From: Acetobacterium woodii
Lineage (GTDB): Bacteria > Bacillota > Clostridia > Eubacteriales > Eubacteriaceae
Length of the DNA: 33,999 nucleotides
Direction: 5' to 3'
NCBI GenBank assembly: GCA_016213825.1
Contig: JACQZP010000028.1
Coordinates: 1 to 33,999, forward strand
The position numbers and the translations under genes were made by a program. Below are positions 4,835 to 29,251 of the stretch, piece after piece; the first letter of the stretch is position 1, and each line of letters begins with the position of its first letter. A model generated the notes under the pieces. It saw only the letters and a list, made by a program, of their open reading frames with translations, was not told the origin of the DNA and did not search any database.

Positions 4835-6117
4835 GAAAGACTCCTATGTGTAGGTTTTTGTTCAGCACTATTTGATGAAAGAGTGTAATTCTTATTTTTA
4901 AAATTATCTATGACGTTATAAAAAAGAGTTTCGTACTTATCTATACTTGCATCCACTGTGAGATTTCTTAAGAAATATGATCTTCCATTAGCGCCCATCG
5001 TCTGTCTCTCTTCAGTCGACATCCCATAAATTTCTCTGACTGCTTTCGCAAGATCAAATGGATCAGAAGGTTTTGCAACCAAACCCGCCCTTGCATCGAG
5101 GATCAATTGCGCCGCATCCCCTTGTACTGACATTAAAATTGGTTTTTCACATGCAAGATAACTCTGTGTTTTGCCAGGGATAGTGATCTCAAATAGCGGT
5201 TCATCAATAAGGTGTACAAGAAGGACATCAGCAAGGGCATAAAAATCCGTCATCTTAGAAGCAGGCTGCCTTGATATAAACTTAACATTCTTAAGATTAT
5301 ACTCTCTGACCGCCTTGAATAAAGATTCTTTTTCAATTCCATCTCCAATTAGAACAAATTGTATTTGTGGAATATCAGTTAAAAGTTTAGCAGCCTCAAT
5401 AACATTACGCAATCCTTGTGGAGGCCCCATATTGCCGGCATACACTACATTAAACCGACCTGTTAAACCATGCTCGTGTGCAAGTTGTTCGTCCTTTTGA
5501 ACGGGTTTGTAATTACTTTCATCCGCCCAATTGTAGATCACATGAATTTTGTTAGCATCTATACCTTTATCTACCAAGTTTTTTTTGAATCCAGGAGAAA
5601 TAACTGAAATCGCAGATGCCCGGCCATAAATAAATTTAGCAGCCTTGTCAACAGTGCGATAAACGAAACTTTTCCGAGACATCTTAACTGTAGTTAGAGA
5701 TTCAGGATACATATCTTGTAAGTTAAAAACAAAGGGTTTCTTACGAAGCCAAGCCAATATCCATGCAGGCAAACCCATAGTAAGAGTATGAAATACAAAT
5801 ATTATATCTGTAGGTCCGGCAAGTAAAGGACCTAATATGGTAGACGTAAATGCAAGGCTGAGAAAATAAGCAGAGCGTTTAAAGGCCGAAAGACTGTGAT
5901 CCGTATAAAGAGGAAGGCGAATTACCTTAACACCATCTATTTCTTCTATCAGCCATAGTTTTTGTTTATAGCCATCAAAAACATTGCCATACGGATAATT
6001 AGGAAACCCGGTAATAGAAACCACAGTGTGCCCTCGTTTTACCATCTCTTTTGCAAACTCATGAGGGATTGCCACTGGCTCAGGGTAATAATATTGTGTA
6101 AGCATCAATATTCTCAT
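4831..6117 (-). CDS. wbuB: GT4 glycosyltransferase, WbuB/WbjE-like (probable L-FucNAc transferase)
   Basis: This 428-residue GT-B enzyme belongs to the WbuB-like branch of GT4. It opens [20 protein letters not shown] and carries [22 protein letters not shown] and the C-terminal donor-site region [21 protein letters not shown]. Enzymes of this branch usually sit beside fnlABC and transfer L-FucNAc onto the lipid-linked first sugar. Here it directly follows fnlC with an ATGA overlap (6114-6117), and the radical SAM gene starts inside its own stop. It probably acts at the cytoplasmic face of the inner membrane. Family is secure from sequence; donor identity comes from context. Confidence 0.85.
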
Positions 6118-7247
6118 AGGTTCTTGTGCCAGACAGTTCTATTTACATAATTTGTATAACTTAGGATTATACGTAAAACCTTTTCGGAAACATTTGGAAC
6201 ATTATAGTCTGAGACCAATCTCAACAACCTATTACTACCCCTTGCCTGTGAAGTCAAAATTAAAAGAGCCTGCAATATACGATCTATCTCCAGGCCAGTC
6301 ATCATCACCGCGGCCTCTTCCATCCCTTCCGGACGCTCATGTGCTTCACGGATGTTCAAGGCTGGAAAATTCAATATTGAAGACTCTTCAGTAATAGTGC
6401 CACTATCTGAAAGCACTGCATACGCGTTTTTCTGGATATATACATAATCAAAGAACCCGAGCGGCTTTAACAGCTCAATCTTCTCATGAAAAACAGTCCC
6501 TTTGGCTTCAATCCGTTTTTTCGTCCTTGGATGAGTGGAAACAATAATTCTTTTCCCGTAAGTATTCGCTAAACCATTTAGTACAGTGACAAGCTTAGCA
6601 AAGTTCTCTTCTGAATCTATATTTTCTTCCCGGTGTACACTTACAACAAAATAATCCATCTCTGTCAGATTTAACTTTTTCATGATCTGCGACTGATTTA
6701 TCTTTTCCTGATAGAAATAAAGGACTTCGAACATGGGACTTCCGGTCTTGATTACACGATCAGGAGGAAGACCTTCCCGCAATAGATACTCACGCGCAAT
6801 GGAACTGTATGTCAGATTTATGTCACTTATATGATCTACAATTTTCCGGTTGATTTCTTCCGGCACCCTCTGATCAAAACAGCGATTCCCCGCTTCCATG
6901 TGGAATATGGGAATCTTGCGACGTTTTGCCGGTATCACTGCTAAACAACTGTTCGTGTCACCAAGAACCAGCAGGGCTTCTGGCTTTTCCTTTTCAAAGA
7001 TCGGATCAACCTTGATAATGACCTGTCCGATGGTTTCGGCAGCGGTGGCGCCGGCAGCATTGAGGAAATGGTCGGGTTTCTTCACCTCAAGGTCGTTAAA
7101 GAATATTTCATTCAACTCGTAATCATAGTTCTGGCCAGTATGCACCAGGACGTGTTCCGTATGCCTGTCTAAGGCTGCTATTACCCTGGAAAGGCGGACG
7201 ATCTCCGGCCTGGTGCCAACCACTGTCATTACCTTCATCTTTTTCAC
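6114..7247 (-). CDS. fnlC: UDP-N-acetylglucosamine 2-epimerase family, FnlC/WbjD-type (UDP-L-FucNAc formation)
   Basis: This is a non-hydrolysing 2-epimerase of WecB type, about 377 residues. It has [14 protein letters not shown] at the N-terminus, [15 protein letters not shown], the [10 protein letters not shown] motif, [20 protein letters not shown] and the C-terminal [21 protein letters not shown] substrate site. FnlC/WbjD epimerises C2 of UDP-2-acetamido-2,6-dideoxy-L-talose to give UDP-L-FucNAc. I place the start at GTG 7247 (protein beginning [11 protein letters not shown]), because GAGGTG lies just upstream across the stop of fnlB; ATG 7238 is possible. An open frame continues upstream to 7289 but overlaps fnlB and lacks family homology. 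FnlA and FnlB upstream complete the three-step pathway. Confidence 0.92.
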
Positions 7248-7248
7248 G

Positions 7249-8361
7249 TCACACCTCGCTAAAATAGGTATCCGGTTTCTCCGGATCAAAGATGCTGTTT
7301 GCCCAAAATAAAACTATCATTTCTCCATCAGAAATATTTTCTATAGAATGAGTATAACCCGGCGGGATATCAACCACTTTAATTTTATCATCTGAAACAT
7401 GATACGATAAAACCTCATCAGAAAAAATATGCCTTAACTTGATGACCGCCCTTCCGTGAATAACACAAAATTTCTCAATCTTGGTATTGTGGTAATGATT
7501 ACCGCGAATGACTCCGGCATGGGACTTCGAGACGAACATTTGTCCGAAATGATCTGATTTGATGAGTTCAGCTAAAATACCCCTATTATCAGTTTTCACT
7601 TCAAGTTCATAGGAAAGATCGTCTTTGTCCAGATAAGATAGATATGTTGAGTAAAGGCAACGCATGAAATCATCAGACAGGTCAGGTAATATCAGTGTTT
7701 TTCGAACATTCAAAAACTGATAAATCTTGTCCGCCAGATCTCCGAGAGTGATCTTATACGACGGACGAATAGTTAAATAGTGGTTAGTCGCTGGAATTAT
7801 GCCAGACAGGATGGCCATAAAGGCGTTAACAACATCGTCAATATAGACTAACTCGATTTCTTTATTCGGATCAGATATAGTAATGTCCAGACCATGTGAT
7901 ATATTATGGCAGCATGTTGCTACAACAGAATTGTAGTTAGGTCTGGACCATTTACCGAACACATTGGGCAGACGGTAAATGAAGACAGGAGCACCGGTTC
8001 TTTTGTTGTAATCAAGTAAGACGTCTTCCGCCTGTCGCTTGCTTACTCCGTATGGATTGTCTATCTCCGCTTGAATGGACGAGGACATTACAATAGCGGC
8101 ACTCTTACCATATTTCATCAGCGATCCAATAATTGTCTGGGTAAGTTCTTTGTTGCCTGTCTCGAACTCCTTAATATCCAATGGGCGGTTCACCCCGGCA
8201 AGATGATATATAATATCAGCTTCTTGCACCAGGGGACCAAGGCTCGACAGATGGTCATCTACATCAAAACCATTAACTTTGACATTGTTCTGCCTAGATA
8301 AAGCCTCTAACAGGTTCTTACCGATAAATCCCCTGGAACCGGTAACCAGAACTTTTTTCAA
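7249..8361 (-). CDS. fnlB: Bifunctional SDR-cupin reductase FnlB/WbjC/CapF (UDP-L-FucNAc pathway)
   Basis: The protein has 370 residues, the full CapF length. Residues 1 to about 245 are an SDR with [15 protein letters not shown], the YxxxK pair in NPYGVSK, and RLPNVFGKW. Residues from about 265 to 370 form a cupin containing [18 protein letters not shown] and [12 protein letters not shown], with histidines suited to metal binding. In CapF the two domains carry out C3 epimerisation and C4 reduction to UDP-2-acetamido-2,6-dideoxy-L-talose. The start is TTG at 8361, in a TTGA overlap with the fnlA stop. GGTGGA lies about 8 bases upstream, inside fnlA. It stands between fnlA and fnlC in the usual order. 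Confidence 0.92.
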
Positions 8362-9380
8362 AGGCTACTTCCACCAGCAAGTTCTTGCTGTATATAATCC
8401 AGTTTCAGTAACTTGTCTTTGATTTCCGCAACCCCTAATCTTATTGTGTTATGGGAATTATAATCCTCAATATGAGATATCTGTTCCTCTCCTTCAGTGA
8501 AATACTTGTTATAATTCAAATCTCTGCCGTCAGGTACTATTCTGTAATAATTTCCAAAGTCTTCTGCCTTGGAAAGCTCCTCTCTTGTAAGTAAGGTCTC
8601 ATACAATTTTTCTCCATGCCTTGTCCCGATTATCTTAACTTCATTATCTCTTTGAAACAGCTCTTTTAGTGCTATGGCTAAGTCCCTTATTGTACATGCA
8701 GGCGCTTTCCGTACAAAGATGTCACCCTGCTGCGCATTGTCAAATGCATACAGCACCAAATCAACAGCATCATCTAATGACATCAGGAAGCGGGTCATGT
8801 TCGGATCGGTTACCGTTAAAGACTCCCCTTCTTTTATCTGCCTGACGAACAAGGGAATCACTGAACCACGCGAGGCCATAACATTTCCATAACGAGTTCC
8901 GCAAAGAATGGTTCTATCAGAACTGACAGCACGGGACTTAGCAACCACAAGCTTTTCCATCATCGCCTTCGAAATCCCCATAGCGTTGATCGGATAGACT
9001 GCCTTGTCGCTGCTTAATGCGATAACTCGCCTAACCCCACCGTCAATCGCAGCGTTTAATACATTCTCCGTTCCAAGTATGTTGGTCTTTACCGCTTCCA
9101 TCGGGTAGAACTCGCACGATGGCACCTGCTTAAGAGCCGCAGCATGAAATACATAATCAACGCCCTCTATAGCGAACATGAGGCTGGTATAATCACGCAC
9201 GTCCCCGATATAAAACTTAACCTTGTTATTATTAAGCTCAATCCTCATGTCTTCTTGTTTTTTTTCATCACGGCTGAATATACGGATCTCTTTTATGTCT
9301 GTATTTAAAAACCTCTTTAATACTGCGCTTCCAAAAGACCCCGTTCCACCGGTTATAAGCAGTGTTTTACCAGTGAACAT
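8358..9380 (-). CDS. fnlA: UDP-GlcNAc 4,6-dehydratase/5-epimerase, FnlA/WbjB/CapE-type
   Basis: This is the first committed enzyme of UDP-L-FucNAc synthesis, converting UDP-GlcNAc to the 4-keto-6-deoxy-L-arabino sugar. It has the GGTGSFG nucleotide motif, FSRDEKKQEDMR, HAAALKQVPSCEFYP and SSDKAVYPINAMGISK. Methionine replaces the usual catalytic tyrosine in MGISK, a hallmark of the FlaA1/CapE group. The open frame reaches 9392, but I choose ATG 9380 (MFTGKTLLITGG): the GGAG in the codons before it is a good ribosome site at 7-8 bases, and family members begin this way. It opens the compact block fnlA-fnlB-fnlC-wbuB. The gap upstream to DUF362 is only about 75 bases. Confidence 0.93.
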   Translation of the reverse strand: MFTGKTLLITGGTGSFGSAVLKRFLNTDIKEIRIFSRDEKKQEDMRIELNNNKVKFYIGDVRDYTSLMFAIEGVDYVFHAAALKQVPSCEFYPMEAVKTNILGTENVLNAAIDGGVRRVIALSSDKAVYPINAMGISKAMMEKLVVAKSRAVSSDRTILCGTRYGNVMASRGSVIPLFVRQIKEGESLTVTDPNMTRFLMSLDDAVDLVLYAFDNAQQGDIFVRKAPACTIRDLAIALKELFQRDNEVKIIGTRHGEKLYETLLTREELSKAEDFGNYYRIVPDGRDLNYNKYFTEGEEQISHIEDYNSHNTIRLGVAEIKDKLLKLDYIQQELAGGSSL

Positions 9381-9457
9381 TTTTATCTCCATAGCGAAAC
9401 ATAATTTTAAATGCCCAAACTATATTGACGATCATTCTGTATCCTCAGATGCTTTTC

Positions 9458-10450
9458 TCAACGTTCTATTATTGGCCTCTTCCGGAATGTATACATTACA
9501 TCATGGAGGAGTTTAGCCCATCTTGAAAAATAAAATAGATGTGTTAATTTGGGGGAGTGAAAAGCAGTTAATGCAGGATAATTCCAAAAGTTTCGTTTTA
9601 AAACAAACTTTCTTTTTAATGATTCTATATCTCCAATAACCTGGATGTCTTCTTTACTTGGTATAAACCCATATTTTGCAGCCATCTTTAAATGACCGAT
9701 CTCTTCCCAGTTAAACCCCATCATCTCAGAAACTATCATGTCAAATGCTCCAAGTGAATTAGATGCAACAAACCAGTTAACCTCAATAGGATCGCCAACC
9801 ATCGGACCATTATTTGTTAATCCATATTTACCATCTAAAAAGGCATATCTAAATTTCAAGATGTCCGATACCTTAGAGATGATATAATCAAACATATAAT
9901 GATTTTTTAACCTCATAACATCCGGCAGACATCCCCATTGATTTTTATAGGATAGCGTTATTTTCGTCATACAATGGACCTTGGGCAGGGGACAACTGAT
10001 CGAGAAATCTATCTCGTTAAAAAATATCTCGGGGAGTGCGATGTTATAAGGCCCCTGTGGGGTATCAATCTCAATCTCCTTAGATGGGATCTTTGAAAGG
10101 TTGATAATTTTCACCTGGGGGAACTCCTTCTCTATCTCCAGAAACCCCATATCTCTAAATGCATCAGACATAGAAAAGCTATTATATCCACCTTCTCCTT
10201 CTCCAATAAATATCTTTAAATCAGGATTAATTTTAGTTAAAACACTTACAATGCCTTTAACAAATTCAACCCTCGTAGTCACACCTTTTTTGAAGACAGG
10301 ATAGGTGAGGTTTGGCTTGATAAATAATGCCTTTGCAGTCCTCGCATCTTCTTCAAGCCCTATTTGCTTAGAGGCATCATAAACCTGCGCAAAAAGTCCT
10401 TCAGATGCATCTTTAAGAAGGTCAACGATCACCTTTTTCTTCAAGATCAC
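9458..10450 (-). CDS. DUF362 domain protein
   Basis: The protein has about 330 residues. It carries the DUF362 signature around residues 150-175 (LPKVHCMTKITLSYKNQWG, matching the family pattern PKxH..T...KN..G), the GEGEGGYNSFSM segment, and DPIEVNWFVASNSLGAFD further on. No ferredoxin-type cysteine cluster is present, unlike some DUF362 proteins. The biochemical role of the family is not established, though members recur in surface-polysaccharide clusters. The open frame begins with GTG at 10450, but GAGGGG sits immediately before it. TTG at 10444 (MKKKVIVDLL) is better spaced and is the likelier start. Only 5 bases separate it from the GT4 gene upstream, so the two are co-transcribed. Confidence 0.85.
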   Translation of the reverse strand: MILKKKVIVDLLKDASEGLFAQVYDASKQIGLEEDARTAKALFIKPNLTYPVFKKGVTTRVEFVKGIVSVLTKINPDLKIFIGEGEGGYNSFSMSDAFRDMGFLEIEKEFPQVKIINLSKIPSKEIEIDTPQGPYNIALPEIFFNEIDFSISCPLPKVHCMTKITLSYKNQWGCLPDVMRLKNHYMFDYIISKVSDILKFRYAFLDGKYGLTNNGPMVGDPIEVNWFVASNSLGAFDMIVSEMMGFNWEEIGHLKMAAKYGFIPSKEDIQVIGDIESLKRKFVLKRNFWNYPALTAFHSPKLTHLFYFSRWAKLLHDVMYTFRKRPIIER

Positions 10451-12586: not shown

Positions 12587-13279
12587 TTAAAGATGAGGTG
12601 GTTCCTCCACTTTCTTTGCATCATTTAAGAACATCTTGACAGTTTCTTTGCTGTAAGGATGCACGAGCATTGCATTCAAGAGATCAGGCATTACAGTAAC
12701 TATGTGTGCACCTGCTTCCAGCCATTCAATAACGTTCAACACTTCACGTGTGGACCCCACAATTATTTGGGATTTTAGATCAAACTGATCAAGTACATTC
12801 CTAAGCTTGGCAATCTCACCACAGGAATTGTATCCCATGTTGTTTACCCGACCACCGAAGATGGAAACATAAGTCGCCCCTGCCATGGCAGCCAAAAAAC
12901 ACTGCTGAGCACTCATCATAGCTGTAGCATTAATTCGAACATCATGCTTTGTTTCAAGTTCATGGATAGCTTCAAGGTTTTCTAATTCGCCTTCGGGTCC
13001 GTGGATGGTAATCTTAATGTTGATATTTTCAGACCATTGGGCAATGTCTTTAGCTTGCGTGATCATAGCAGCTTTATCAGTTTTTGTGACCTCAACTGAT
13101 AATGGATAGGGGGAAATCATTTTCGCTATTTCAATGGACCTGTTTTTAATCCCAGCTATCCCCCCAGTTACACCATCTTTTAACAAGATGGTTGGGTTGG
13201 TTGTTACCCCTCTTATGATTCCCATTTTTAAATACTTTTCTATTTCGTTAAGCTTACCTGAATCTAAGAAAATTGGCAT
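12587..13279 (-). CDS. Transaldolase / fructose-6-phosphate aldolase-like protein
   Basis: This 230-residue class I aldolase of the short transaldolase (FSA/TalC-like) type has MPIFLDSGKLNEIEKYL at the start, GVTTNPTILLK at 24-34, the Schiff-base lysine probably K89 (NINIKIT), and INATAMMSAQQCFLAAMAGATYVSIFGGR. Such enzymes move or add three-carbon dihydroxyacetone units, so it could make sedoheptulose 7-phosphate or another long-chain ketose phosphate. The next gene upstream is a GmhA-like isomerase, the enzyme that would use such a product, so I infer it supplies the heptose branch locally. AAGGAG sits about 7 bases before ATG 13279, a strong ribosome site. The C-terminal tail (EEPPHL) is slightly longer than usual. 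Confidence 0.88.
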   Translation of the reverse strand: MPIFLDSGKLNEIEKYLKMGIIRGVTTNPTILLKDGVTGGIAGIKNRSIEIAKMISPYPLSVEVTKTDKAAMITQAKDIAQWSENINIKITIHGPEGELENLEAIHELETKHDVRINATAMMSAQQCFLAAMAGATYVSIFGGRVNNMGYNSCGEIAKLRNVLDQFDLKSQIIVGSTREVLNVIEWLEAGAHIVTVMPDLLNAMLVHPYSKETVKMFLNDAKKVEEPPHL

Positions 13280-13345
13280 TTATATCTCCTTTCTTTTTTC
13301 TATGGCAGATGTATCTACTTTGCAATGTTCTTGAACAACACCACG

Positions 13346-13942
13346 TTATTTCACATTTTCCCACTTCATCCCGAAAACTTTTATTTTTGGATGAGAAACT
13401 ATGAGATGCCAGATAACAGCCTGAAAGGATTCAGTATGAGGAGTTACTGTTTCAGGATTCACTGTAGGTACTACCACACAGGCATCAGCAATTTGGGCCG
13501 TATAGCCGCCATCTCTACCTACAATCCCAAATATCTTTGCTCCGACTTTTTTAGCATATTTGATGGCCTGAACGATATTAACACTAATATTTTTTTCGTC
13601 ATTTCCTCCGCCCACGGATAATACAAACACACCATCCTTATTTGTAAGTCGGCTTCCCCTCAGCCAACTCACAAAAACTGTTTCCCATCCATCATCATTA
13701 ACTCGTGCACTTAATTCGGAAACATTATCCGTCGGCGTATAGGATTCAATACCTGCTATTTTTCTGAAATCGTTCACTGCATGGGTGGCATTTCCTGCTC
13801 CACCGCCGACTCCAAGAAAAAAAAGACGCCCGCCTAGATGCCTTAATTCTATCAAATGATTAATGATTTCTTCTATAGCATTCTTATCTATGCCATTAAC
13901 CACTTGGTGAACTTCTTCTAAGTAATTGTTTACATAGTGCAC
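13346..13942 (-). CDS. SIS-domain sugar isomerase, divergent GmhA-like (heptose set A)
   Basis: This is a 198-residue SIS-fold protein of phosphoheptose isomerase length. The phosphate-binding regions are RLFFLGVGGGAGNATHAVND (GmhA normally has GNGGSAADAxH) and FVLSVGGGNDEKNISVNI (normally GxSTSGNSxN). It lacks several usual serines but keeps the histidine. The C-terminus carries VVPTVNPETVTPHTESFQAVIWHL, like the GmhA substrate site. GmhA converts sedoheptulose 7-phosphate to D-glycero-D-manno-heptose 7-phosphate. Its neighbours are a transaldolase and GmhB, so a heptose or related ketose phosphate is the likely substrate. The frame begins with GTG 13942; the ribosome site is weak. A different ketose substrate is possible given the altered motifs. 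Confidence 0.78.
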   Translation of the reverse strand: MHYVNNYLEEVHQVVNGIDKNAIEEIINHLIELRHLGGRLFFLGVGGGAGNATHAVNDFRKIAGIESYTPTDNVSELSARVNDDGWETVFVSWLRGSRLTNKDGVFVLSVGGGNDEKNISVNIVQAIKYAKKVGAKIFGIVGRDGGYTAQIADACVVVPTVNPETVTPHTESFQAVIWHLIVSHPKIKVFGMKWENVK

Positions 13943-14013
13943 GATGTAGTCTATCCTTTCTCCTATGAAATATTATAAATCATCAGATAGCATTGTTTAT
14001 TGAAACACCTGTT

Positions 14014-14559
14014 TCACAATTTGTTTTTTATAATCAAATCCACGGCCTCTCCCAGACTCTCCACTTTATGATCACATTCTGCTTCCTGATTATAAAACCG
14101 GTCCAAAAGAATGGTTGTGCAACCTGCAGCTCGACCGGCAACCATATCTTTCCAGCTATCCCCTATTACAAAGGAGCTTTGACAATCAATATCCCACTTT
14201 TTACTAGCCTCTAATATCATCCCTGCCTTGGGTTTACGGCAAGTACACTCATCCCCATCATCATGTGGACAAACCAGGACTGCATCAACCGAAAGGGTAC
14301 TATAGACTTTTTCAGTCATCGCGTCCAGGATATTTTGAGACATCTTTCCTCGGGCAATATCCGGTTGATTAGTAACCACGATCACCATAAATCTCATATC
14401 TTTAAGCCGTCTGATGGCCTCTTGAATCCCAATCTCCCAATTAAACTCCTCTAATGCCCTGGGTGAATAAACCTTCCCGTCCCTTATCAAGACTTTATTA
14501 ACAACCCCATCGCGATCCAAAAAGACGGCACCTTTACCTTTCAATTTATCTTTCATCAC
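14014..14559 (-). CDS. gmhB: HAD-IIIA phosphatase, GmhB-like heptose 1,7-bisphosphate 7-phosphatase (set A)
   Basis: The protein has 181 residues. HAD motif I is FLDRDGVVNK (nucleophile and acid aspartates), motif II is VVTNQPDIARG, the zinc-binding loop is CPHDDGDECTCRKPKAGM, and motif IV is FVIGDSWKDMVAGRAAG. This is the layout of GmhB, which removes the 7-phosphate from heptose 1,7-bisphosphate before nucleotide activation. The start is GTG 14559, overlapping the upstream stop as TAGTG, or the ATG directly after it at 14556. It completes an HddA-GmhB-nucleotidyltransferase route together with genes at 15485 and 19530. Confidence 0.9.
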   Translation of the reverse strand: MMKDKLKGKGAVFLDRDGVVNKVLIRDGKVYSPRALEEFNWEIGIQEAIRRLKDMRFMVIVVTNQPDIARGKMSQNILDAMTEKVYSTLSVDAVLVCPHDDGDECTCRKPKAGMILEASKKWDIDCQSSFVIGDSWKDMVAGRAAGCTTILLDRFYNQEAECDHKVESLGEAVDLIIKNKL

Positions 14560-15488
14560 TAAATATGGCCTTTTGCCATCTCTGACTTAATATAATCTAT
14601 AGATCTCATAATGCCTGTGCGGATAGCAGTTTTAGGTCTCCAGCCAAGACTCTCAGCCTCGTGGATGTCAGCCAACGTCTCCTCAGCTTCACCAGATAGC
14701 TCCGGCTTATAAATAGGCGGGTTATGGATGCCTAATAACTCGCTCACTAATTTATAAATCTCATTTATGGAATAGTTTACACCTGATCCCAAATTAAAAA
14801 CGCGATTATCGGTTCGTTCGTCATTTAAGCATAACAGATGAAAGTCATTAATATCATCCACATAAACAAAATCCCTTCTTTTTTTCCCTGTTCCATAAAT
14901 TATTGCATGTTCGTCCATAAGTAATTTAATAATAAATGCACTCATGACTGGTGGAATGGTTCGCCTGTAATCTTGTACTGGACCATAGACACAAAAATAT
15001 CTCAAGGCAGTGAATTTTAACTTATAAAATTTTCGATAAGCTTCTGCAAAGTACATAGAGCTCAGTTTGCTTGTGGCATAAAAGCTTTCTGGCTTAATTT
15101 CTGATTCTGGGGTCGGGTAAAGCTTGCTCCCTTCATAGATCGCTGATGATTCTGCATAAATTATCTTTTTAACCTTTAACTTTCTGGCTGCCTCAAAAAC
15201 ATTGACAGTTCCATGGACATTAATATCAGCTGTTTCAACAGGATCATCCTGGCAGTCGGCAATGCAGTTTTTGGCAGCCAAATGAAAGACTGCATCAACA
15301 CCTTCAAAGATTGAATAGATTGATCTATCCCTTATATCAATTTGATAAAAGTTTACATCTTCAGGGATGTTTTCCTTTAATCCGTAGGTCAAATTGTCAA
15401 GACCAACAACCTCATGTCCCTCCTGTAAGAGGCGATCGGCTAGGTTGGAACCAATAAAACCAGCCACCCCTGTTATTAAAATTCTCAT
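14559..15488 (-). CDS. NAD-dependent sugar-nucleotide epimerase/dehydratase (heptose set A)
   Basis: This is a 309-residue extended SDR. GVAGFIGSNLADRLL binds NAD, FHLAAKNCIADCQDDPVETADINV follows, the catalytic YxxxK is in FYATSK, and GSGVNYSINEIYKLVSELLG lies in the substrate domain. It belongs to the broad GalE-like group; whether it epimerises C4 or dehydrates cannot be decided. It is coupled at both ends: ATGA overlap with the nucleotidyltransferase (15485-15488) and TAGTG overlap with gmhB (14559). That tight packing argues it acts on the NDP-heptose made by its neighbours. Confidence 0.88.
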   Translation of the reverse strand: MRILITGVAGFIGSNLADRLLQEGHEVVGLDNLTYGLKENIPEDVNFYQIDIRDRSIYSIFEGVDAVFHLAAKNCIADCQDDPVETADINVHGTVNVFEAARKLKVKKIIYAESSAIYEGSKLYPTPESEIKPESFYATSKLSSMYFAEAYRKFYKLKFTALRYFCVYGPVQDYRRTIPPVMSAFIIKLLMDEHAIIYGTGKKRRDFVYVDDINDFHLLCLNDERTDNRVFNLGSGVNYSINEIYKLVSELLGIHNPPIYKPELSGEAEETLADIHEAESLGWRPKTAIRTGIMRSIDYIKSEMAKGHI

Positions 15489-16222
15489 CCTGAAATCTTT
15501 CTTTTTTGATTATTCAGTAATAATTTTAATGCCAACTCATTTGCTTTTTCGTAGGATCCTTTGGTATCAATCCCGATAATAGGATCTTCCATCTTGACTA
15601 CATAGATTTTTTCACCAGCGCTAAGCATTTCAGGAAAGACATGAAATCCAAAATCGTAAAATGTATTATCAGGAATATAAGTTAAGACCTTTGGGTCCAG
15701 ACAGAAAAAACCGGCACTGACATAATTGCTAGTCACCTGTTCAGGTTTGGGCTTTTCGACTAATCCTAACATGATATTATTTCTATCAATTTTAACCATT
15801 CCACTTTTGGTTACATCTTTACGCCAATGGACAGCCATAGTGGCTATTGGATGGTGCTGATTATGAGCATCTTTGAGTTTCCTTATGTCCCACTGACTGA
15901 AGTTGTCAGCATAAATTACATAAAAAGTACTATCGAAAAAATTACCGACTTTTTTTACCGCTCCGGCTGTACCCAACAACTCAGGTTCATAAGAATAATA
16001 TACCTGTAATCCATATAGATCCCCGTTACCCACAAAGTTTCGTACCTTATCAGGTAAATAGTGCAGGTTTATCATGCACTCGGACACTCCAAAGCTATGC
16101 AACCAACGAAGGGTCCAATCAATGAGAGGGCGTCCCCCTAACGGCATAAGGCATTTAGGCATAGCCTCTGTCAAAGGGCGTAATCGTGTCCCCAAACCAG
16201 CAGCCAGTACCATTGCCTTCAC
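15485..16222 (-). CDS. hddC: Sugar-phosphate nucleotidyltransferase, HddC-like (set A)
   Basis: This is a 245-residue single-domain NTP transferase. It has the signature LAAGLGTRLRPLTEAMPKCLMP at the N-terminus, YEPELLGTAGAVKKV and the metal-binding VIYADNFSQWD, then GLVEKPKPEQVTSNYVSAGF. HddC-type enzymes attach GMP to D-glycero-D-manno-heptose 1-phosphate. Base specificity (GDP, ADP or dTDP) is not readable from the sequence. The start is GTG 16222 in a TAGTG overlap with the Gfo/Idh gene. Its stop overlaps the epimerase start, so three genes here are translationally linked. Confidence 0.85.
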   Translation of the reverse strand: MKAMVLAAGLGTRLRPLTEAMPKCLMPLGGRPLIDWTLRWLHSFGVSECMINLHYLPDKVRNFVGNGDLYGLQVYYSYEPELLGTAGAVKKVGNFFDSTFYVIYADNFSQWDIRKLKDAHNQHHPIATMAVHWRKDVTKSGMVKIDRNNIMLGLVEKPKPEQVTSNYVSAGFFCLDPKVLTYIPDNTFYDFGFHVFPEMLSAGEKIYVVKMEDPIIGIDTKGSYEKANELALKLLLNNQKRKISG

Positions 16223-17304
16223 TATTCTATTTCCGTAATCTTCACTGGCCGATTTTCTTTTGCTGACCTATAAACCGCTTCAATCATCCTATTTGCCTCA
16301 AACCCATCAAGACCATCACCAATTGGCTGTCTCTTTTCTTTGATTGCACCAATAAATTCTTTCCATTCCAATTCCCAAGAAACATCAGGGCCATCAAAAA
16401 TAATCGTTTCTTCTTCAGGAGCCCCACCTTCGTAACTAATCCTGAGGTCTAAACTCTGGGTCCTTGGTCTTTTTCCTATCTTCAATGTTTCTGGCCCATA
16501 ACTTCCCCCTAATCCATCAACAATTATATAACCTGCCTCCCCAAAAACTTCGAACGAAAAAATGTTCTTCCATTGGGTCCAACTAGTATGCATGGAAGCT
16601 ACCTGATTCCTGATGGTCTTGAATAAGGCAAAAGCATTATCTTCGACGGGCATATCCCAGAAGTAAGTCGGGATATATCCAAAGGCATCTTCAAATATCC
16701 CCATAAACCACCGAAAAAGATCCACCACATGAACGCCTTGATCTAAGAGTTCACCACCCCCGCATAAATCCTTATCTGCCCGCCATTCCTTATCATACCC
16801 TGGCCGTCCTCCATGCCCATATCGGCAGCGTATATAATAAAGAGGGCCTATCTCACCTTGATCTACTAATTCCTTGGCCTTCATAATTCCTGGATGGTGG
16901 CGGTGATTAAAACCGGTTTTTAAGACTAAAGGGATTTGAGGTTTGAGGCTTGATGCTTGACTTAACGTATTAAGTATGGCCCTTGATTCTTCAACATTCC
17001 TTCCCAACGGTTTTTCACAAAGGACTTGCTTTCCATTCTGAAGAGCCTCTATTACTATTGGAGCCAGAAATTTATTTACCGTTGAAACAACAATAACGTC
17101 CACATTCTTATTTCTGGTTATCTCTTGCCAGGAAGAGCAAGGTTCCCCTTTGCAAAGATCAGCTAACTGGCAAGCTTTTGAATAATCAATATCACAACAA
17201 AGTACTATCTTACCAAAGTGATTGTCGTTATTAGATATTTTTTGGATAGCCTGGACTCGTTTTTTCCCGATCAATCCACAGCCAATAATGCCTACCCTAA
17301 ACAT
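16222..17304 (-). CDS. Gfo/Idh/MocA family oxidoreductase (set A)
   Basis: This 360-residue NAD(P)-dependent oxidoreductase has the N-terminal Rossmann motif VGIIGCGLIGKKR. The family EKP motif is in VLCEKPLGRN, TGFNHRHHPG follows, and GGELLDQGVHVVDLFRWF carries the catalytic-region histidine. In polysaccharide clusters such enzymes oxidise or reduce a ring hydroxyl (often C3) of an NDP-sugar or sugar. It starts at ATG 17304 and overlaps the nucleotidyltransferase by one base. It lies between an SDR and the nucleotidyltransferase, so the set A sugar probably undergoes redox change. Confidence 0.87.
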   Translation of the reverse strand: MFRVGIIGCGLIGKKRVQAIQKISNNDNHFGKIVLCCDIDYSKACQLADLCKGEPCSSWQEITRNKNVDVIVVSTVNKFLAPIVIEALQNGKQVLCEKPLGRNVEESRAILNTLSQASSLKPQIPLVLKTGFNHRHHPGIMKAKELVDQGEIGPLYYIRCRYGHGGRPGYDKEWRADKDLCGGGELLDQGVHVVDLFRWFMGIFEDAFGYIPTYFWDMPVEDNAFALFKTIRNQVASMHTSWTQWKNIFSFEVFGEAGYIIVDGLGGSYGPETLKIGKRPRTQSLDLRISYEGGAPEEETIIFDGPDVSWELEWKEFIGAIKEKRQPIGDGLDGFEANRMIEAVYRSAKENRPVKITEIE

Positions 17305-17332
17305 ATTTTGATTTACCAGAACCGACTTCTAA

Positions 17333-18190
17333 CTATCCTTTTTTAAAAAATATCTTATCATCAATACGACGAATGGTTGCAAAATCTTTATCCACTCTCA
17401 GTCTGCCCTGAAATTCTTTATCTTGCCAAGGATCCCATGGAGCTGAGATGAATTTGCCAGTTATACCATCCGATTCTGATGATAAAAGAAATATTGTTAA
17501 ATCCACTGCCTTCTCAGGTGGTATGCCACCGCTTTCAATCTGCTTTTTTGTATTTTCAAAAAAGGCTTTTGAGGTAAATTCGGGTCCGGCCTTAAGAGTA
17601 TCTTGGTGGAGGCGTGTAATTACAAATCCTGGCGCTATACAATTAACATCAAACCCTTCTTCTGAAATTTCCATTGATAGATTTTCTGTAAACCTGACGG
17701 TAGCAATCTTGCTCGTCGCATAAGCGGAATAGAATGGAAAGGGAGTTGCTGCACCCCCACCTGAATAATTAACAATCTTTTTCCGAGACGTTGATTTCAA
17801 TAAAGGAATAAAAGCATGACACATATAAACTGTCCCCAGGAAATTTATCCGAATAGCTTCCGTAAATTTTCCCATATCCACTTGATAGGTTTTTCCTATA
17901 GGTCCATATACACCAGCACAATTGACCAACCCATGTATCACACCGAATTTATTTGAACACCACTCAGAAAAGGCATTTACCTCATTATAATTGCCCACGT
18001 CTATAGAATACATCTGATGTTCCTTGTCCGATATTTTATTCAATTTCTCTAATGCATTTTCCAAATTGACTTTATCACGTGCAGCAATGATAACTTTCGC
18101 GCCTGCAGAAGCGCACTTTTGGGCTATTTCAAACCCTATTCCTATGCTTCCTCCGGTTATCAGTATTATTTTCGAATCAAGAACACCCAT
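17333..18190 (-). CDS. Short-chain dehydrogenase/reductase (set A)
   Basis: This is a 285-residue classical SDR. The cofactor loop is ITGGSIGIGFEIA, NCAG is the structural motif, and the catalytic triad includes the serine of NYSGGGAA and YxxxK in SAYATSK. IAPGFVITRLH then closes the usual core of about 250 residues. A C-terminal extension of about 35 residues follows ITGKFISAPWDPWQ. It would reduce a keto sugar or oxidise a hydroxyl; the substrate is unknown. Only 2 bases separate it from the dehydrogenase gene upstream. The C-terminal SAPWDPW segment recalls sugar-type SDRs found in capsule loci, but I cannot name a precise family. Confidence 0.86.
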   Translation of the reverse strand: MGVLDSKIILITGGSIGIGFEIAQKCASAGAKVIIAARDKVNLENALEKLNKISDKEHQMYSIDVGNYNEVNAFSEWCSNKFGVIHGLVNCAGVYGPIGKTYQVDMGKFTEAIRINFLGTVYMCHAFIPLLKSTSRKKIVNYSGGGAATPFPFYSAYATSKIATVRFTENLSMEISEEGFDVNCIAPGFVITRLHQDTLKAGPEFTSKAFFENTKKQIESGGIPPEKAVDLTIFLLSSESDGITGKFISAPWDPWQDKEFQGRLRVDKDFATIRRIDDKIFFKKG

Positions 18191-18192
18191 AA

Positions 18193-19488
18193 TTACCTCC
18201 CGATAGAATAATAATTAAATCCAAACGAAACCATTTTTTCACGATCTAAAAAATTTTTAGTGTCAAAAAATATTGGTCTCTTCATCTTTTTTGGAATATC
18301 TTTCCAGTCATAGTCTTTAAATTCCTTCCACTCTGTCAGCAGAAGAAGAAAATCAGCATAAGCTGAAACATCTTCAATACCCGATGCAATAGTAAATCTT
18401 GGATTGAAACTGAGTTCAGAATAATCAGCCTTTGGGTCATAGACCTTAACTCTGGATTTATTTTCTATAAGCAATTTAACAATCTCCAGAGGAAGGCTTC
18501 TCCTTAATGTGCTCGTCCCCGGTTTGTAGGTAAGCCCGAGAACACCGATTAAACTGCCTTCAATAGAACCTATCAACCTTTTAATCCTACCTATAATTGA
18601 TTGCTTCCTCTCCTTATTTAACTCATGTATTATCCCAAATACTCTAGCGTATCCTCCTTCTCTGATATTTCTTTGATTCAGCACCATTAAATCCCTTCCA
18701 AGCGTCCCCCCAGAAAAACCAATCCCAGGTGAAAGATATGCTTTTTCACCGATACGAGGATCGGATTTCATCCCCTGAACAACATCATCAATTTGAGCTC
18801 CAGTCATTTCACAGATGTCTGCTATTTGGTTTACAAAAACAATGCTATTTGCTAAAAATGAATTTATACCATGCTTTACCATCTCAGCACTCTCAAGATT
18901 CATGCTTAAAATATTAGCTTTGATTTGGGAAAATAAATCTCTGCATCTTTTTTCAGCAATAGGATCTGCAGTTCCCAAAATTATACGGTCAGGATTCAGA
19001 TAACATTGAATTGCCTCACCAAGCCTTAAATTTTCCGGTGAATAAGCCAGTTCAAGAGAAGAATTTTTTTCTTTTAATTTAGCTCGTAATAATTTACAGA
19101 ATCCAGTTGGCGATTGAGAGCTTATGATAAGGGTGGCATTATCTTTCATGAGGCCGCAGACGTCATCAACAGATTTTTCTAAAATAGTTGTATCGCTTGA
19201 ATCATCTTCATGAACAGGCGTATCATATGATAAAAATATGAAATCACAAGAAGCAAGTGAACTTATGTCACTTGAAAAACTTAATGTTTGGTTACTAATT
19301 CCATCTTGAATAGCTTCAGAGAGATTTGGTTCAAATAAAGGGGTAATCCCTTTGTTTAATTTCTCAACTCTTAAAGTATCATGGTCAAATCCTATAACTT
19401 TATTCCCGAGTTTAGCCCATGAAGCGCAGAGTACGCATCCCAAGTGCCATAGTCCAATGACACCTATTGTTTTGTGCTGAGTAGACAT
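18193..19488 (-). CDS. UDP-glucose/GDP-mannose dehydrogenase family protein lacking the catalytic cysteine
   Basis: The protein has 431 residues, the normal length for Ugd/WecC-type NDP-sugar dehydrogenases. The N-terminal NAD domain (IGVIGLWHLGCVLCASWAKLG), the central segment (SPENLRLGEAI; K205 in AEMVKHGINSF) and the C-terminal UDP-binding domain (GVLGLTYKPGTSTLRRS) are all present. The active-site motif GxGFGGSCFPKD reads GIGFSGGTLGRD, placing Thr262 where the thiohemiacetal-forming cysteine should be, and Arg265 for the usual lysine. Full four-electron oxidation to a uronic acid therefore looks unlikely; a single oxidation or another role is inferred. GGAGGT about 7 bases before ATG 19488 is a strong ribosome site. 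It is followed 2 bases later by the SDR. Confidence 0.88.
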   Translation of the reverse strand: MSTQHKTIGVIGLWHLGCVLCASWAKLGNKVIGFDHDTLRVEKLNKGITPLFEPNLSEAIQDGISNQTLSFSSDISSLASCDFIFLSYDTPVHEDDSSDTTILEKSVDDVCGLMKDNATLIISSQSPTGFCKLLRAKLKEKNSSLELAYSPENLRLGEAIQCYLNPDRIILGTADPIAEKRCRDLFSQIKANILSMNLESAEMVKHGINSFLANSIVFVNQIADICEMTGAQIDDVVQGMKSDPRIGEKAYLSPGIGFSGGTLGRDLMVLNQRNIREGGYARVFGIIHELNKERKQSIIGRIKRLIGSIEGSLIGVLGLTYKPGTSTLRRSLPLEIVKLLIENKSRVKVYDPKADYSELSFNPRFTIASGIEDVSAYADFLLLLTEWKEFKDYDWKDIPKKMKRPIFFDTKNFLDREKMVSFGFNYYSIGR

Positions 19489-19529
19489 CTCTCTAACCTC
19501 CTCTGAATATTTCTATGCCCCCAAATCTC

Positions 19530-20531
19530 TTATCTAATCACATCTATAAAATTTACCAGATTTTTTGTTCCCTCAAAATCAAACCGATACCGCATCTCCC
19601 TCAGGCCCAATTCTTTCATTTTTGCTCTAAAACTTCCATGCTTTTTTTCAACATAAAATAGAAAAAACCCTCCTCCTCCAGCGCCTGAGATCTTCCCGCC
19701 AAGTGCACCACACTCTTTGGCAATTTCATAAATCTTATCAAAGTGAGGATTTGACATTTTATTAGATATCCTTTTTTTATACTGCCAGTGCTGATCAAAC
19801 ATCAAACCAACATCTGTTATATTACCGTTTTCTACTGCATCAAGTATTTTAAACCCAAGTTCCTTAATATAGTGCATATTTTCAACAACATCCCTTTTTC
19901 CTTCGTTTGCTCCTTTGCTCTGTTCAGAAAGAATTTCGTCAGCGCTTCGTGAGGTATTGGTATAAAACATAAGAAGGTTTCTATTTAGGTCGTCTATGTT
20001 TTCATCCGAAATATTTGCTCTTCTCACATGAACAGTCCCATCCTTCTCAATATTTAATACTGTTAATCCGCCGAAAGCTGCCATATACTGATCCTGCTTA
20101 CCTATCGGTTTACCTAATTTGTTTATCTCTAAGTCACATGCCTCTTCTGCAAGATGCTGAATCGGGATATATTCTCGCTTTAGTGTATGAAGGGCATTAA
20201 GCAGGCCAACAGTATAACAACTTGAAGATCCCAGTCCAGTTCCAGCCGGAACATCTGCCATAGAGATAATCTCAATAGCCCTTTCCACATTCATCATCCG
20301 CATGGCTTCCTTAGCAATGTCATGTTGTAACTCTTCTCTATGTTGTACTTGTTCAGATTTTGTATATTTTACCCTTACCAAATCATCCACAATAGGCCGA
20401 TTAATATTAATAAACATGTATTTGTCAATGGCTGCCGCAAAAATAAATCCACCATATTTTGAATAATAAGAAGGTAAGTCACTTCCTCCACCGCCTAAAG
20501 TAAATCTAAAGGGGGTACGAGTTATTATCAT
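19530..20531 (-). CDS. hddA: GHMP kinase, HddA-like heptose-7-phosphate 1-kinase (set A)
   Basis: This is a 333-residue GHMP-superfamily kinase. Motif 1 is TPFRFTLGGGGSDLPSYY, motif 2 (ATP loop) is DVPAGTGLGSSSCYTVGLLNALH, and motif 3 near the C-terminus is GGKISGAGGGGFFLFYV. KPIGKQDQYMAAFGGL is shared with HddA and related fucokinase-like enzymes. HddA phosphorylates C1 of D-glycero-D-manno-heptose 7-phosphate on the route to GDP-heptose. With GmhA-, GmhB- and HddC-like genes downstream, the full activation route is in this block. The start is ATG 20531, with AAAGGG a few bases upstream. Confidence 0.9.
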   Translation of the reverse strand: MIITRTPFRFTLGGGGSDLPSYYSKYGGFIFAAAIDKYMFININRPIVDDLVRVKYTKSEQVQHREELQHDIAKEAMRMMNVERAIEIISMADVPAGTGLGSSSCYTVGLLNALHTLKREYIPIQHLAEEACDLEINKLGKPIGKQDQYMAAFGGLTVLNIEKDGTVHVRRANISDENIDDLNRNLLMFYTNTSRSADEILSEQSKGANEGKRDVVENMHYIKELGFKILDAVENGNITDVGLMFDQHWQYKKRISNKMSNPHFDKIYEIAKECGALGGKISGAGGGGFFLFYVEKKHGSFRAKMKELGLREMRYRFDFEGTKNLVNFIDVIR

Positions 20532-20564: not shown

Positions 20565-21503
20565 TCACTTTTTATGTTTATCTGCAAACAAAGGGCTGAA
20601 AAAATCTAATGTACGACGCAATCCTTCTTCAAGGTCCACTGAGGGTTTCCAGCCAAGTTCTAAATGGGCATTGTTGGCATCTAAATAACAACGACGTACT
20701 TCACCAAGTTTAGCCGGACCATGAACTTCAGCAAGCGGATAGTTGATCATTTTTTTAAGATTTTCGAAAATTTGGTTCACTGACACACCAACCCCCCAAC
20801 CCAAATTATATGCCCCACCACCCCCATTTACCAATGCAAGTAGATTAGCATTGACGACATCAGAGACGTAAACATAATCACGCAACTGTTCACCATCACC
20901 ATTGATAATCGCCTGAATGCCTCTTAACATTTGTCCAATAAATATAGAGACGACCCCCGCTTCTCCAAAAGGATCCTGCCGAGGACCGTATACATTGGGG
21001 TATCGAAACACTGTATATTTCAAACCATAATTTTTCTCGTAAACTGGCAAATAAAGTTCAAAACTGGCCTTGCTCGCACCATAAGGATCTCGCGGTTGAA
21101 TAGGATGTTTCTCATCTGCAGGCACATATTGTAATTCTCCATAAACACATCCACCTGTAGAAGAATATATTATCTTTTTTGTTTTGTATTTCCGGCAACA
21201 TTCAAGCAGATTAATTCCACCGCGGACATTAACATCCGCATAGGTCATTGGATCGTCTAAAGAGGCGCGGACATTCCCCCTTGCGGCTTGATGGTTCACT
21301 AAATCGAAGTGTTCCATAGCAAAGAGATCTGCAAGAGCAGGGTCCCGGATATCCATCTTATGGAAGGTAGCCTTAGAATTGACATTTTCTTTGTGTCCTG
21401 TAGAGAGATCATCTATTACCACAACTTTATGTCCATCTCCTATCAGTGCATCCACGATGTGTGATCCAATAAAACCCGCCCCTCCTGTAACTAATATTTT
21501 CAT
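20565..21503 (-). CDS. NAD-dependent UDP-glucose 4-epimerase-like protein
   Basis: This extended SDR of about 312 residues has GGAGFIGSHIVDALI at the N-terminus. HQAARGNVRASLDDPMTYADVNV follows, then SSTGGCVYGE, the catalytic YGASK, and FRYPNVYGPRQDPFGEAGVVSIF. These are typical of GalE-like enzymes, but family sequence alone does not fix the substrate. The open frame starts at TTG 21506; ATG 21503 is a better start, with AAGGAGG about 8 bases before it. It precedes the set A kinase by 33 bases, so it may act on the same sugar or supply Gal/GalNAc units. Confidence 0.87.
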   Translation of the reverse strand: MKILVTGGAGFIGSHIVDALIGDGHKVVVIDDLSTGHKENVNSKATFHKMDIRDPALADLFAMEHFDLVNHQAARGNVRASLDDPMTYADVNVRGGINLLECCRKYKTKKIIYSSTGGCVYGELQYVPADEKHPIQPRDPYGASKASFELYLPVYEKNYGLKYTVFRYPNVYGPRQDPFGEAGVVSIFIGQMLRGIQAIINGDGEQLRDYVYVSDVVNANLLALVNGGGGAYNLGWGVGVSVNQIFENLKKMINYPLAEVHGPAKLGEVRRCYLDANNAHLELGWKPSVDLEEGLRRTLDFFSPLFADKHKK

Positions 21504-21574
21504 CAAATTAACCTCCTTTTATAATGAATTATTGATTTGTTAATGTATCATGAAACCAAACATCATTCATAGCC

Positions 21575-26392: not shown

Positions 26393-26543
26393 TATTCTTT
26401 AATGAGTTACACAATAGTTTCCGGAAGGCGGGATACATGCGTTCAGTGTAAAAAGCTAATAGACAAATTCAGTATCTTAAAAATAATTTCTTCGTCAACA
26501 ATGGCAATATTTACGCTTTTATCTTTGTGTGGGTCTGGCTTGG
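26393..26543. other. Gap between the frameshifted gmhA and the Wzy-like gene
   Basis: About 150 AT-rich bases lie between the restored gmhA stop (26544) and the membrane protein start. I see no hairpin with a T-run, no tRNA and no further coding frame. Confidence 0.4.
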
Positions 26544-27091
26544 CTAGGTTAGGATTTTATGAAGAACATGCATGACAATGAAGTGGGCATCCTCCGTGAT
26601 TTGCATATCATTTATTGGAATATGTAAACAAGTACCTGCCAGATTAATTAGTTCTCCACACGATAAACCGGTAAAACCTATGGTGATCGCATTTTTTTCA
26701 TTGGCATATTTATTGCGTTTAGTACATTTTTGGAATTACCACTTCCGGAAACCCCCAAAACAATATCTCCTTCATTCAGGAAGTTTTTAAGCTGTTCAAT
26801 AAAAATACTGTCATAACCAACATCATTTGAATAAGCTAGAACTGTAGTAATATTGTCATTTAAACAAATGATTTTGAACCTACGATCTTTGTTGTAGGAA
26901 CATCCCTTTATGATGTCACAAACCATGTGTGACGCGGTTGATCCACTACCGCCGTTTCCAAAAACAAAAATCTGTTTATTTGAATCTCTGGCATAGATAA
27001 ATAATTGAGCAATTTTTTCAATTACCTCTACCTCAATCTTTTTTATCGTAGAATTCAATAATGATAAATACTCTTGAATTTGTGCTTTCAT
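26544..27091 (-). pseudogene. gmhA: Frameshifted GmhA phosphoheptose isomerase (heptose set B)
   Basis: The frame from ATG 27091 has FVFGNGGSGSTASHMVCDIIKG and LGVSGSGNSKNVLNAIN, the two GmhA phosphate-binding loops. It then ends early at 26678 after MPMKKMRSP. In the next frame the family continues as YANEKNAITIGFTGLSCGEL and IPINDMQITEDAHFIVMHVL, stopping at 26544. Total length (548 bases) is one base short of 182 codons plus stop, so a single missing base near 26704-26716, or a slip on the A7 run at 26692-26698, accounts for it. It overlaps the upstream kinase by ATGA. It may be a real mutation, an assembly error or a slippage-rescued gene. Confidence 0.85.
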
Positions 27092-28077: not shown

Positions 28078-28084
28078 TTTTTGT

Positions 28085-29200: not shown

Positions 29201-29251
29201 TATACAGCCTAATATATTTTCAAAAATGATCGTTTTTTGAACTTTATAACA

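Follow-up and report, generated by a model that had tools for sequence, protein, structure and literature searches.

The closest described counterpart of the genes analysed here is the pathway to the C8 sugar of the lincosamide antibiotics lincomycin (lmb genes) and celesticetin (ccb genes). As set out in excerpts of PMC4351081 and PMC12945683, its roster comprises a transaldolase (R), isomerase (N), kinase (P), phosphatase (K) and guanylyltransferase (O), followed by an epimerase (M), dehydrogenase (L), oxidoreductase (Z) and aminotransferase (S), with R, N, K and O marked as confirmed. According to an excerpt of PMC5854111, LmbR forms an octulose from ribose 5-phosphate and a C3 unit donated by either fructose 6-phosphate or sedoheptulose 7-phosphate, while the excerpted text of PMC12945683 has GDP-octose converted to GDP-lincosamide by LmbM, LmbL, CcbZ and CcbS. 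Here we analysed bases 1-33999 of contig C18 from the 3.9-Mb genome of Acetobacterium woodii (33,999 nucleotides; the window) and, within it, a block of nine genes at 12587-20531 on the minus strand, which is probably a polysaccharide-cluster version of the lincosamide octose pathway. We favour this assignment because the block shares the lincosamide roster, and because related gene cassettes co-exist in genomes with a separate GmhA and a second transaldolase. Families were called using Pfam and NCBIfam profile searches of the window proteins, as follows, with roles given by their lincosamide counterparts.

12587..13279, minus strand: TAL, transaldolase of 230 amino acids (TAL_FSA, 133.7 bits); role of LmbR.
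13346..13942, minus strand: SIS, ketose/aldose phosphate isomerase of 198 amino acids, the diagnostic gene of the cassette; role of LmbN.
14014..14559, minus strand: HAD, HAD-IIIA phosphatase, GmhB-like (PRK08942, 130 bits, cut-off 178); role of LmbK.
14559..15488, minus strand: EPI1, extended short-chain dehydrogenase (SDR) type epimerase/dehydratase for nucleoside diphosphate (NDP) sugars (Epimerase, 196.8 bits); role of LmbM.
15485..16222, minus strand: NTP, sugar-1-phosphate nucleotidyltransferase (NTP_transferase, 115.6 bits); role of LmbO.
16222..17304, minus strand: GFO, Gfo/Idh/MocA oxidoreductase (GFO_IDH_MocA domains); role of LmbZ/CcbZ.
17333..18190, minus strand: SDR, classical short-chain dehydrogenase (adh_short, 148.7 bits); no Lmb counterpart.
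18193..19488, minus strand: UGD, nucleotide-sugar dehydrogenase with Thr262 replacing the catalytic Cys (TIGR03026, 309 bits); role of LmbL.
19530..20531, minus strand: KIN, GHMP sugar kinase, HddA-like (HddA model, 164 bits, cut-off 600); role of LmbP.
20565..21506, minus strand: EPI2, GalE-like epimerase (galE, 202 bits, cut-off 262), 33 bp upstream of KIN.

A first-pass annotation of the window had described the nine same-strand genes from TAL to KIN, several of them overlapping. All nine lie at the coordinates that it gave, and each of these families has profile support. Inter-gene gaps range from -4 to +71 bp, with overlaps of 4 bp (NTP/EPI1) and 1 bp (EPI1/HAD and GFO/NTP). The run does, however, go past the end proposed for it, and EPI2 is its tenth gene, which may be a pathway member or serve another sugar. 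SIS scored 25.9 bits with SIS_2, just below the cut-off of 27, and 46 bits with gmhA (TIGR00441) against a cut-off of 209, in agreement with its earlier description as a divergent GmhA-like isomerase. UGD scored above the cut-off of TIGR03026 (NDP-sugDHase), the NCBIfam cut-offs for gmhA, HddA, GmhB and HddC were all missed by the block proteins, and NTP reached none of the listed NCBIfam cut-offs, its nucleotide specificity not being tellable from profiles.

Role for role, the block matches LmbR, LmbN, LmbP, LmbK, LmbO, LmbM, LmbL and LmbZ: the transaldolase and isomerase pair of a lincosamide-type pathway is present, the kinase, phosphatase and nucleotidyltransferase have counterparts by profile in KIN, HAD and NTP, and LmbM, LmbL and LmbZ likewise in EPI1, UGD and GFO. 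We take LmbN to be SIS/GmhA-like, LmbL UGD-like and LmbZ Gfo/Idh-like. No counterpart of the LmbS-type aminotransferase was found in the block, which has an SDR in its stead, and there was no aminotransferase among the 19 profiled proteins of the window, the remainder being judged by reading. Across the 83 genome and plasmid loci described below, a DegT-like cluster (one member profiled) was present in only two, although eight proteins were profiled from 95 clusters of 187 unlabelled neighbour open reading frames and other aminotransferase classes could escape. The block lies among polysaccharide genes, whereas the lincosamide genes lie among antibiotic genes, and the cassette isomerase lacks the carrier-protein fusion. 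To our knowledge, linear octoses made via a transaldolase have been characterised only from Streptomyces lincosamides, and no report of the cassette outside lincosamides was present among the PMC matches listed (20 of 554, 15 of 236, 15 of 29 and 25 of 1,010 in four of the searches). C-4 branched octoses do occur in Gram-negative polysaccharides, as stated in an excerpt of PMC4753412, but involve other chemistry. The first-pass annotation had described the modified sugar as so far unlinked to these genes, yet the excerpts of PMC4351081 and PMC12945683 assign this roster, apart from one swapped enzyme, to the making of lincosamides.

A scan of genome contigs gave at least 581 pattern matches, including 575 SIS relatives, of which the best 80 were analysed, and the genome-locus counts are therefore biased to close relatives. 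Titles of these 80 cover many bacterial phyla, Methanospirillum stamsii and archaeal metagenome-assembled genomes (MAGs; Methanoperedens, Methanomicrobiales and Micrarchaeota). Searching viral contigs with SIS gave 63 loci, and tblastn against plasmids gave five records from Lawsonia and Rhizobium at 63–64% identity, with no actinomycete among them. At >97% SIS likeness, the genome and plasmid loci (83) fall into 80 groups, compared with 55 for the viral loci (63). Neighbour families were detected within 9 kb of SIS using profiles built from the loci, and as controls we used 18 GmhA-like loci of 13–20 kb, picked by a weak search from the window's phylum only. TAL was detected in 71 of the 80 genome loci, KIN in 64, HAD and NTP in 63 each, EPI in 58, GFO in 43, SDR in 39 and UGD in 25, while all three plasmid loci contained all nine families. 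In the 63 viral loci the counts were TAL 57, KIN 50, EPI 48, NTP 21, HAD 14, SDR and UGD 10 each, and GFO 8; in the 18 controls they were TAL, GFO and UGD 0, SDR 1, EPI 4, HAD 6, KIN 7 and NTP 8. The SIS label was absent in two control loci, and BLAST shows TAL in neither. The difference in TAL between genome loci and controls is pronounced (Fisher p 2e-13), the loci not being fully independent. Since KIN, NTP, HAD and EPI also occur near the isomerase in GmhA loci, it is TAL, GFO and UGD that mark the cassette.

Of the 83 genome and plasmid loci, 20 have all nine families on the same strand with gaps of <1.5 kb and a further 11 have eight, while the order EPI-UGD-SDR-GFO-KIN-NTP-SIS-HAD-TAL is identical in 12, from Rhizobium to a Methanoperedens MAG. 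The block is thus conserved elsewhere as a unit, and the lack of conservation that the first-pass annotation had named as grounds for abandoning its proposal was not observed. These same figures refute a chance gathering of unrelated sugar genes in a polysaccharide locus, which we consider highly improbable even though such loci are mosaics and gene order varies among cassette lineages. The window has a different order and falls in a second lineage with L089, L094, L098 and, partly, L132. TAL identity to the window splits into 25–40% (103 proteins) and 55–80% (13 proteins), and the median SIS identities in these two groups are 62 and 64%. In a Lawsonia intracellularis plasmid (L086, 13992-22343), eight of the nine genes stand in a single run that also encloses a gene for an LPG_synthase_TM-type membrane protein, and their annotations are generic family names.

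Within its own lineage the block is a patchy feature and was probably acquired. SIS had no match at E 0.001 in any of the 40 relatives that were searched, of which 18 belong to the same genus, and 248 other genomes of the phylum gave 18 matches at 23–34% identity with E values not below 2e-13, which is what GmhA-like proteins would give. Bradyrhizobium is equally patchy, with SIS in 8 of 195 genomes, including that of cassette locus L161. This one Bradyrhizobium cassette would suit another long sugar, such as a C8 of other configuration, a C9 or a C10 made from, for example, arabinose 5-phosphate or a hexose phosphate, and resembling bradyrhizose in that genus. Transaldolases accept several aldehydes, and bradyrhizose is associated with Bradyrhizobium; none-the-less we regard this as unlikely, as no further assumptions are needed with the lincosamide roster and we know of no C9 or C10 pathway with these enzymes.

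The model of SIS (predicted local distance difference test score 92.5) gave GmhA as its top Foldseek matches (2x3y, template modelling (TM) score 0.77, 23% identity), and its solved relatives are GmhA and DiaA. The zinc ligands of GmhA are His64, Glu68, Gln175 and His183, which an excerpt of PMC5705639 describes as completely conserved in GmhA orthologues; at these positions the cassette SIS has His54, Asp58, Glu171 and His179, so that two of the four differ. His54 and Asp58 are present in 148/148 cassette proteins, Glu171 in all 144 that are ungapped there and His179 in 144/147. The combination HDEH was found in the window SIS and in 15/15 aligned cassette proteins, with HEQH in 13/17 control proteins, and this ligand set separates the cassette SIS from GmhA, though it is not exclusive to cassette SIS. 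Row set A1 consisted of 37 rows, from the window, two of the three plasmid loci and 34 of the 63 viral loci. In TAL, the Schiff-base Lys89 is present in 116 of 117 cassette proteins (one gap) and Phe141 in 115. Because the residue that matches TalB Phe178 is Tyr in fructose 6-phosphate aldolase (FSA), FSA activity was rejected for TAL in favour of the transaldolase type.

The UGD model is closest to the UDP-glucose 6-dehydrogenase (UGD) 3gg2 (TM 0.91), and compared with that family it has the same fold and keeps most catalytic residues. However, Thr262 and Arg265 (GGTLxRD) replace the Cys and Lys of UGDs, its motif being GGTLGRD where UGDs have GGSCFPKD, which bears out its earlier description as a cysteine-less dehydrogenase. 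Among UGD-like proteins in related loci, 29 of 33 are without the catalytic Cys (27 Thr, 2 Ser), and the four that contain it (L090, L107, L123 and one of two in L132) resemble ordinary UGDs. Lys205, Asn209, Thr262, Arg265 and Asp266 were invariant in 23 hand-picked Cys-less rows (A2). With the Cys missing, no covalent thiohemiacetal/thioester route is expected and a uronic-acid product was rejected.

The GDP-D-glycero-D-manno-heptose pathway (GmhA, HddA, GmhB, HddC) has the same isomerase-kinase-phosphatase-nucleotidyltransferase logic and folds as the block, which differs in having its own transaldolase and changed isomerase metal ligands. We searched 23 cassette genomes, which cover every one of the 18 genome loci with nine genes and five of six further chosen loci (L089 being left out). 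A separate gmhA match of 174–216 bits was detected in 13 of these, compared with ~41–63 bits for the cassette SIS, although only 2 of the 13 passed the strict 209-bit cut-off. A separate TAL_FSA match of at least 200 bits was likewise present in 13/23 genomes; seven genomes have both and four have neither, making the argument from co-existence direct for 7/23 and partial for 12/23. A second, different SIS adjoins the first in L097, L106 and L107, and the window has a further isomerase, kinase and nucleotidyltransferase-phosphatase set that lacks a transaldolase. Because a separate GmhA or second transaldolase co-exists with it, the TAL-SIS pair looks dedicated to a substrate other than heptose, and plain heptose was rejected as first choice on these grounds and on the changed SIS ligands. 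The heptose route with which the first-pass annotation led is therefore less likely, while the octose that it named as an option is retained.

A modified-heptose reading, with TAL serving just to raise the supply of sedoheptulose 7-phosphate, SIS distantly related to GmhA and a redox-modified NDP-heptose as product, is, in our estimation, rather unlikely but the most serious competitor. It is favoured by the best NCBIfam models being GmhA for SIS, HddA for KIN and the GmhB-type PRK08942 for HAD, by GmhA and DiaA being the solved relatives of SIS, and by the window genome having, besides TAL, a single TAL_FSA match (40 bits, within a frame of 447 amino acids), so that a local source of sedoheptulose 7-phosphate could help; the 10/23 cassette genomes with no strong second transaldolase also suit it. 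Nevertheless, the pair is kept in the 13/23 genomes with a strong GmhA and the 13/23 with a second transaldolase, the GmhA-like control loci have a transaldolase in 0/18, and two metal ligands that the excerpt of PMC5705639 calls completely conserved in GmhA orthologues are changed in SIS.

Returning to the octose assignment, TAL would make octulose 8-phosphate from ribose 5-phosphate and a dihydroxyacetone unit, the donor being fructose 6-phosphate or sedoheptulose 7-phosphate, and SIS would convert this octulose phosphate to octose 8-phosphate. KIN would then phosphorylate C1, HAD remove the 8-phosphate and NTP form the NDP-octose, after which EPI1, UGD and GFO may re-set stereocentres and oxidise or dehydrate the sugar. 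This succession, in which a local transaldolase and isomerase act as a pair ahead of the kinase, phosphatase and nucleotidyltransferase, with redox and epimerase tailoring last, is as previously outlined and is supported. For the corresponding late steps, a 2020 PNAS paper reportedly assigns 6-epimerisation to LmbM, 6,8-dehydration to LmbL, 4-epimerisation to CcbZ and 6-transamination to CcbS. The UGD step would be a two-electron or internal-redox reaction, not the thiohemiacetal route to an acid. Since the M, L and Z counterparts are accompanied by an SDR replacing S, we propose reduction in place of amination, with SDR reducing the (6-)keto group that LmbS would aminate to leave a neutral 8-deoxy-octose, which the glycosyltransferases would build into a surface glycan. 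We regard the cassette as firmly established, along with the distinct nature of its isomerase and dehydrogenase. We infer a C8 backbone with reasonable but far from full confidence, whereas the individual steps are candidate assignments and the exact deoxy-octose product is put forward as a doubtful, tentative choice.

A number of observations weigh against the octose assignment. No sequence feature that we read fixes the chain length, and the likeness to the Lmb proteins was set by roles and families, not sequence homology. The adjacencies in common with the lmb operon (ML, ZP and PO) occur in mirror order and, by hand reckoning, do not exceed chance, and actinomycetes are absent from the sampled loci. 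TAL is absent from 9/80 genome loci; four of these (L100, L159, L162 and L092) end ≤1.8 kb 3' of SIS, but L110, L111, L131, L143 and L158 have at least 4 kb of DNA there. The late-step genes are also variable, with UGD and SDR near SIS in 25/80 and 39/80 genome loci, respectively, and late steps differ among loci. The metal set is not exclusive to the cassette, as control L170 also has HDEH, and Asp occupies the second ligand place in the second SIS of L097, L106, L107 and the window. Finally, no strong separate GmhA was found in 10/23 cassette genomes and no strong second transaldolase in 10/23, and several of the 23 are MAGs, in which contamination could mimic co-existence.

The region around the block is read as a surface-polysaccharide cluster because it contains glycosyltransferases flanking the block (by profile search), an FnlA/FnlB/FnlC-like set and a second heptose-like set. 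The FnlA/FnlB/FnlC-like genes (6114-9392, minus strand) were named by reading translations and were not profiled, and suggest UDP-L-FucNAc in the same polysaccharide. The second heptose-like set (26678-31138, minus strand) comprises a SIS isomerase, a GHMP kinase and an epimerase with a Cys-rich insertion, with transaldolase absent, together with a 628-amino acid protein combining a nucleotidyltransferase and HAD phosphatase with an end that is kinase-like by eye, without a profile match. Its SIS gene is broken (~26500-27091, minus strand), the frame ending after 137 amino acids with the apparent C-terminal part in another frame, which is a frameshift or assembly error. The cluster also contains a radical-SAM-like protein (by eye) and a DUF362 protein (profiled) at 3416-4834 and 9458-10450, respectively, both on the minus strand.

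With regard to the fate of the sugar, a GT2 glycosyltransferase 53–97% identical to that of L088 was found in 15 further loci and a GtrA-like membrane protein was matched in 12 (10/80 genome and 2/3 plasmid loci), with no match to either query in the viral (n = 63) and control (n = 18) loci. This suggests sugar transfer via a polyprenyl-phosphate carrier in strains with these genes. In the viral loci viewed closely (including L053, L058 and L066), the core consists of SIS, TAL, KIN and an epimerase plus a two-domain protein, among glycosyltransferases. This protein has a cytidylyltransferase-like domain (3/3 by Pfam), preceded at the N-terminus by a part in which a DxDxT motif of HAD type was read by eye and for which Pfam support was weak (one sub-threshold PNK3P match). 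At least some viral loci are phages or prophages, because phage-type genes lie near the cassette core in 5 of 11 examined (of the 63): a tail fibre in L058, an SbcC-like nuclease subunit in L055 and L073, a helicase in L061 and an integrase in L074.

The cassette has probably been taken so far for ordinary heptose genes, and it defines two enzyme families, one of Cys-less UGDs and one of SIS isomerases, each with its own signatures. Octose sugar nucleotides may be a common, overlooked unit of surface glycans, made in hundreds of species (bacteria, some archaea and phages) by a lincosamide-type pathway whose genes carry heptose annotations, in which a Cys-less UGD and an SDR replacing transamination would give neutral deoxy-octoses; we rate this broader proposal slightly below an even chance. 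Should the cassette represent the general form of the lincosamide route, surface sugars with eight carbons would be a class so far overlooked, since their enzymes carry heptose, uronic-acid or generic sugar annotations, and the octose could be sought by glycan chemists in named isolates. It would also hint at the origin of the antibiotic pathway to the lincosamides.

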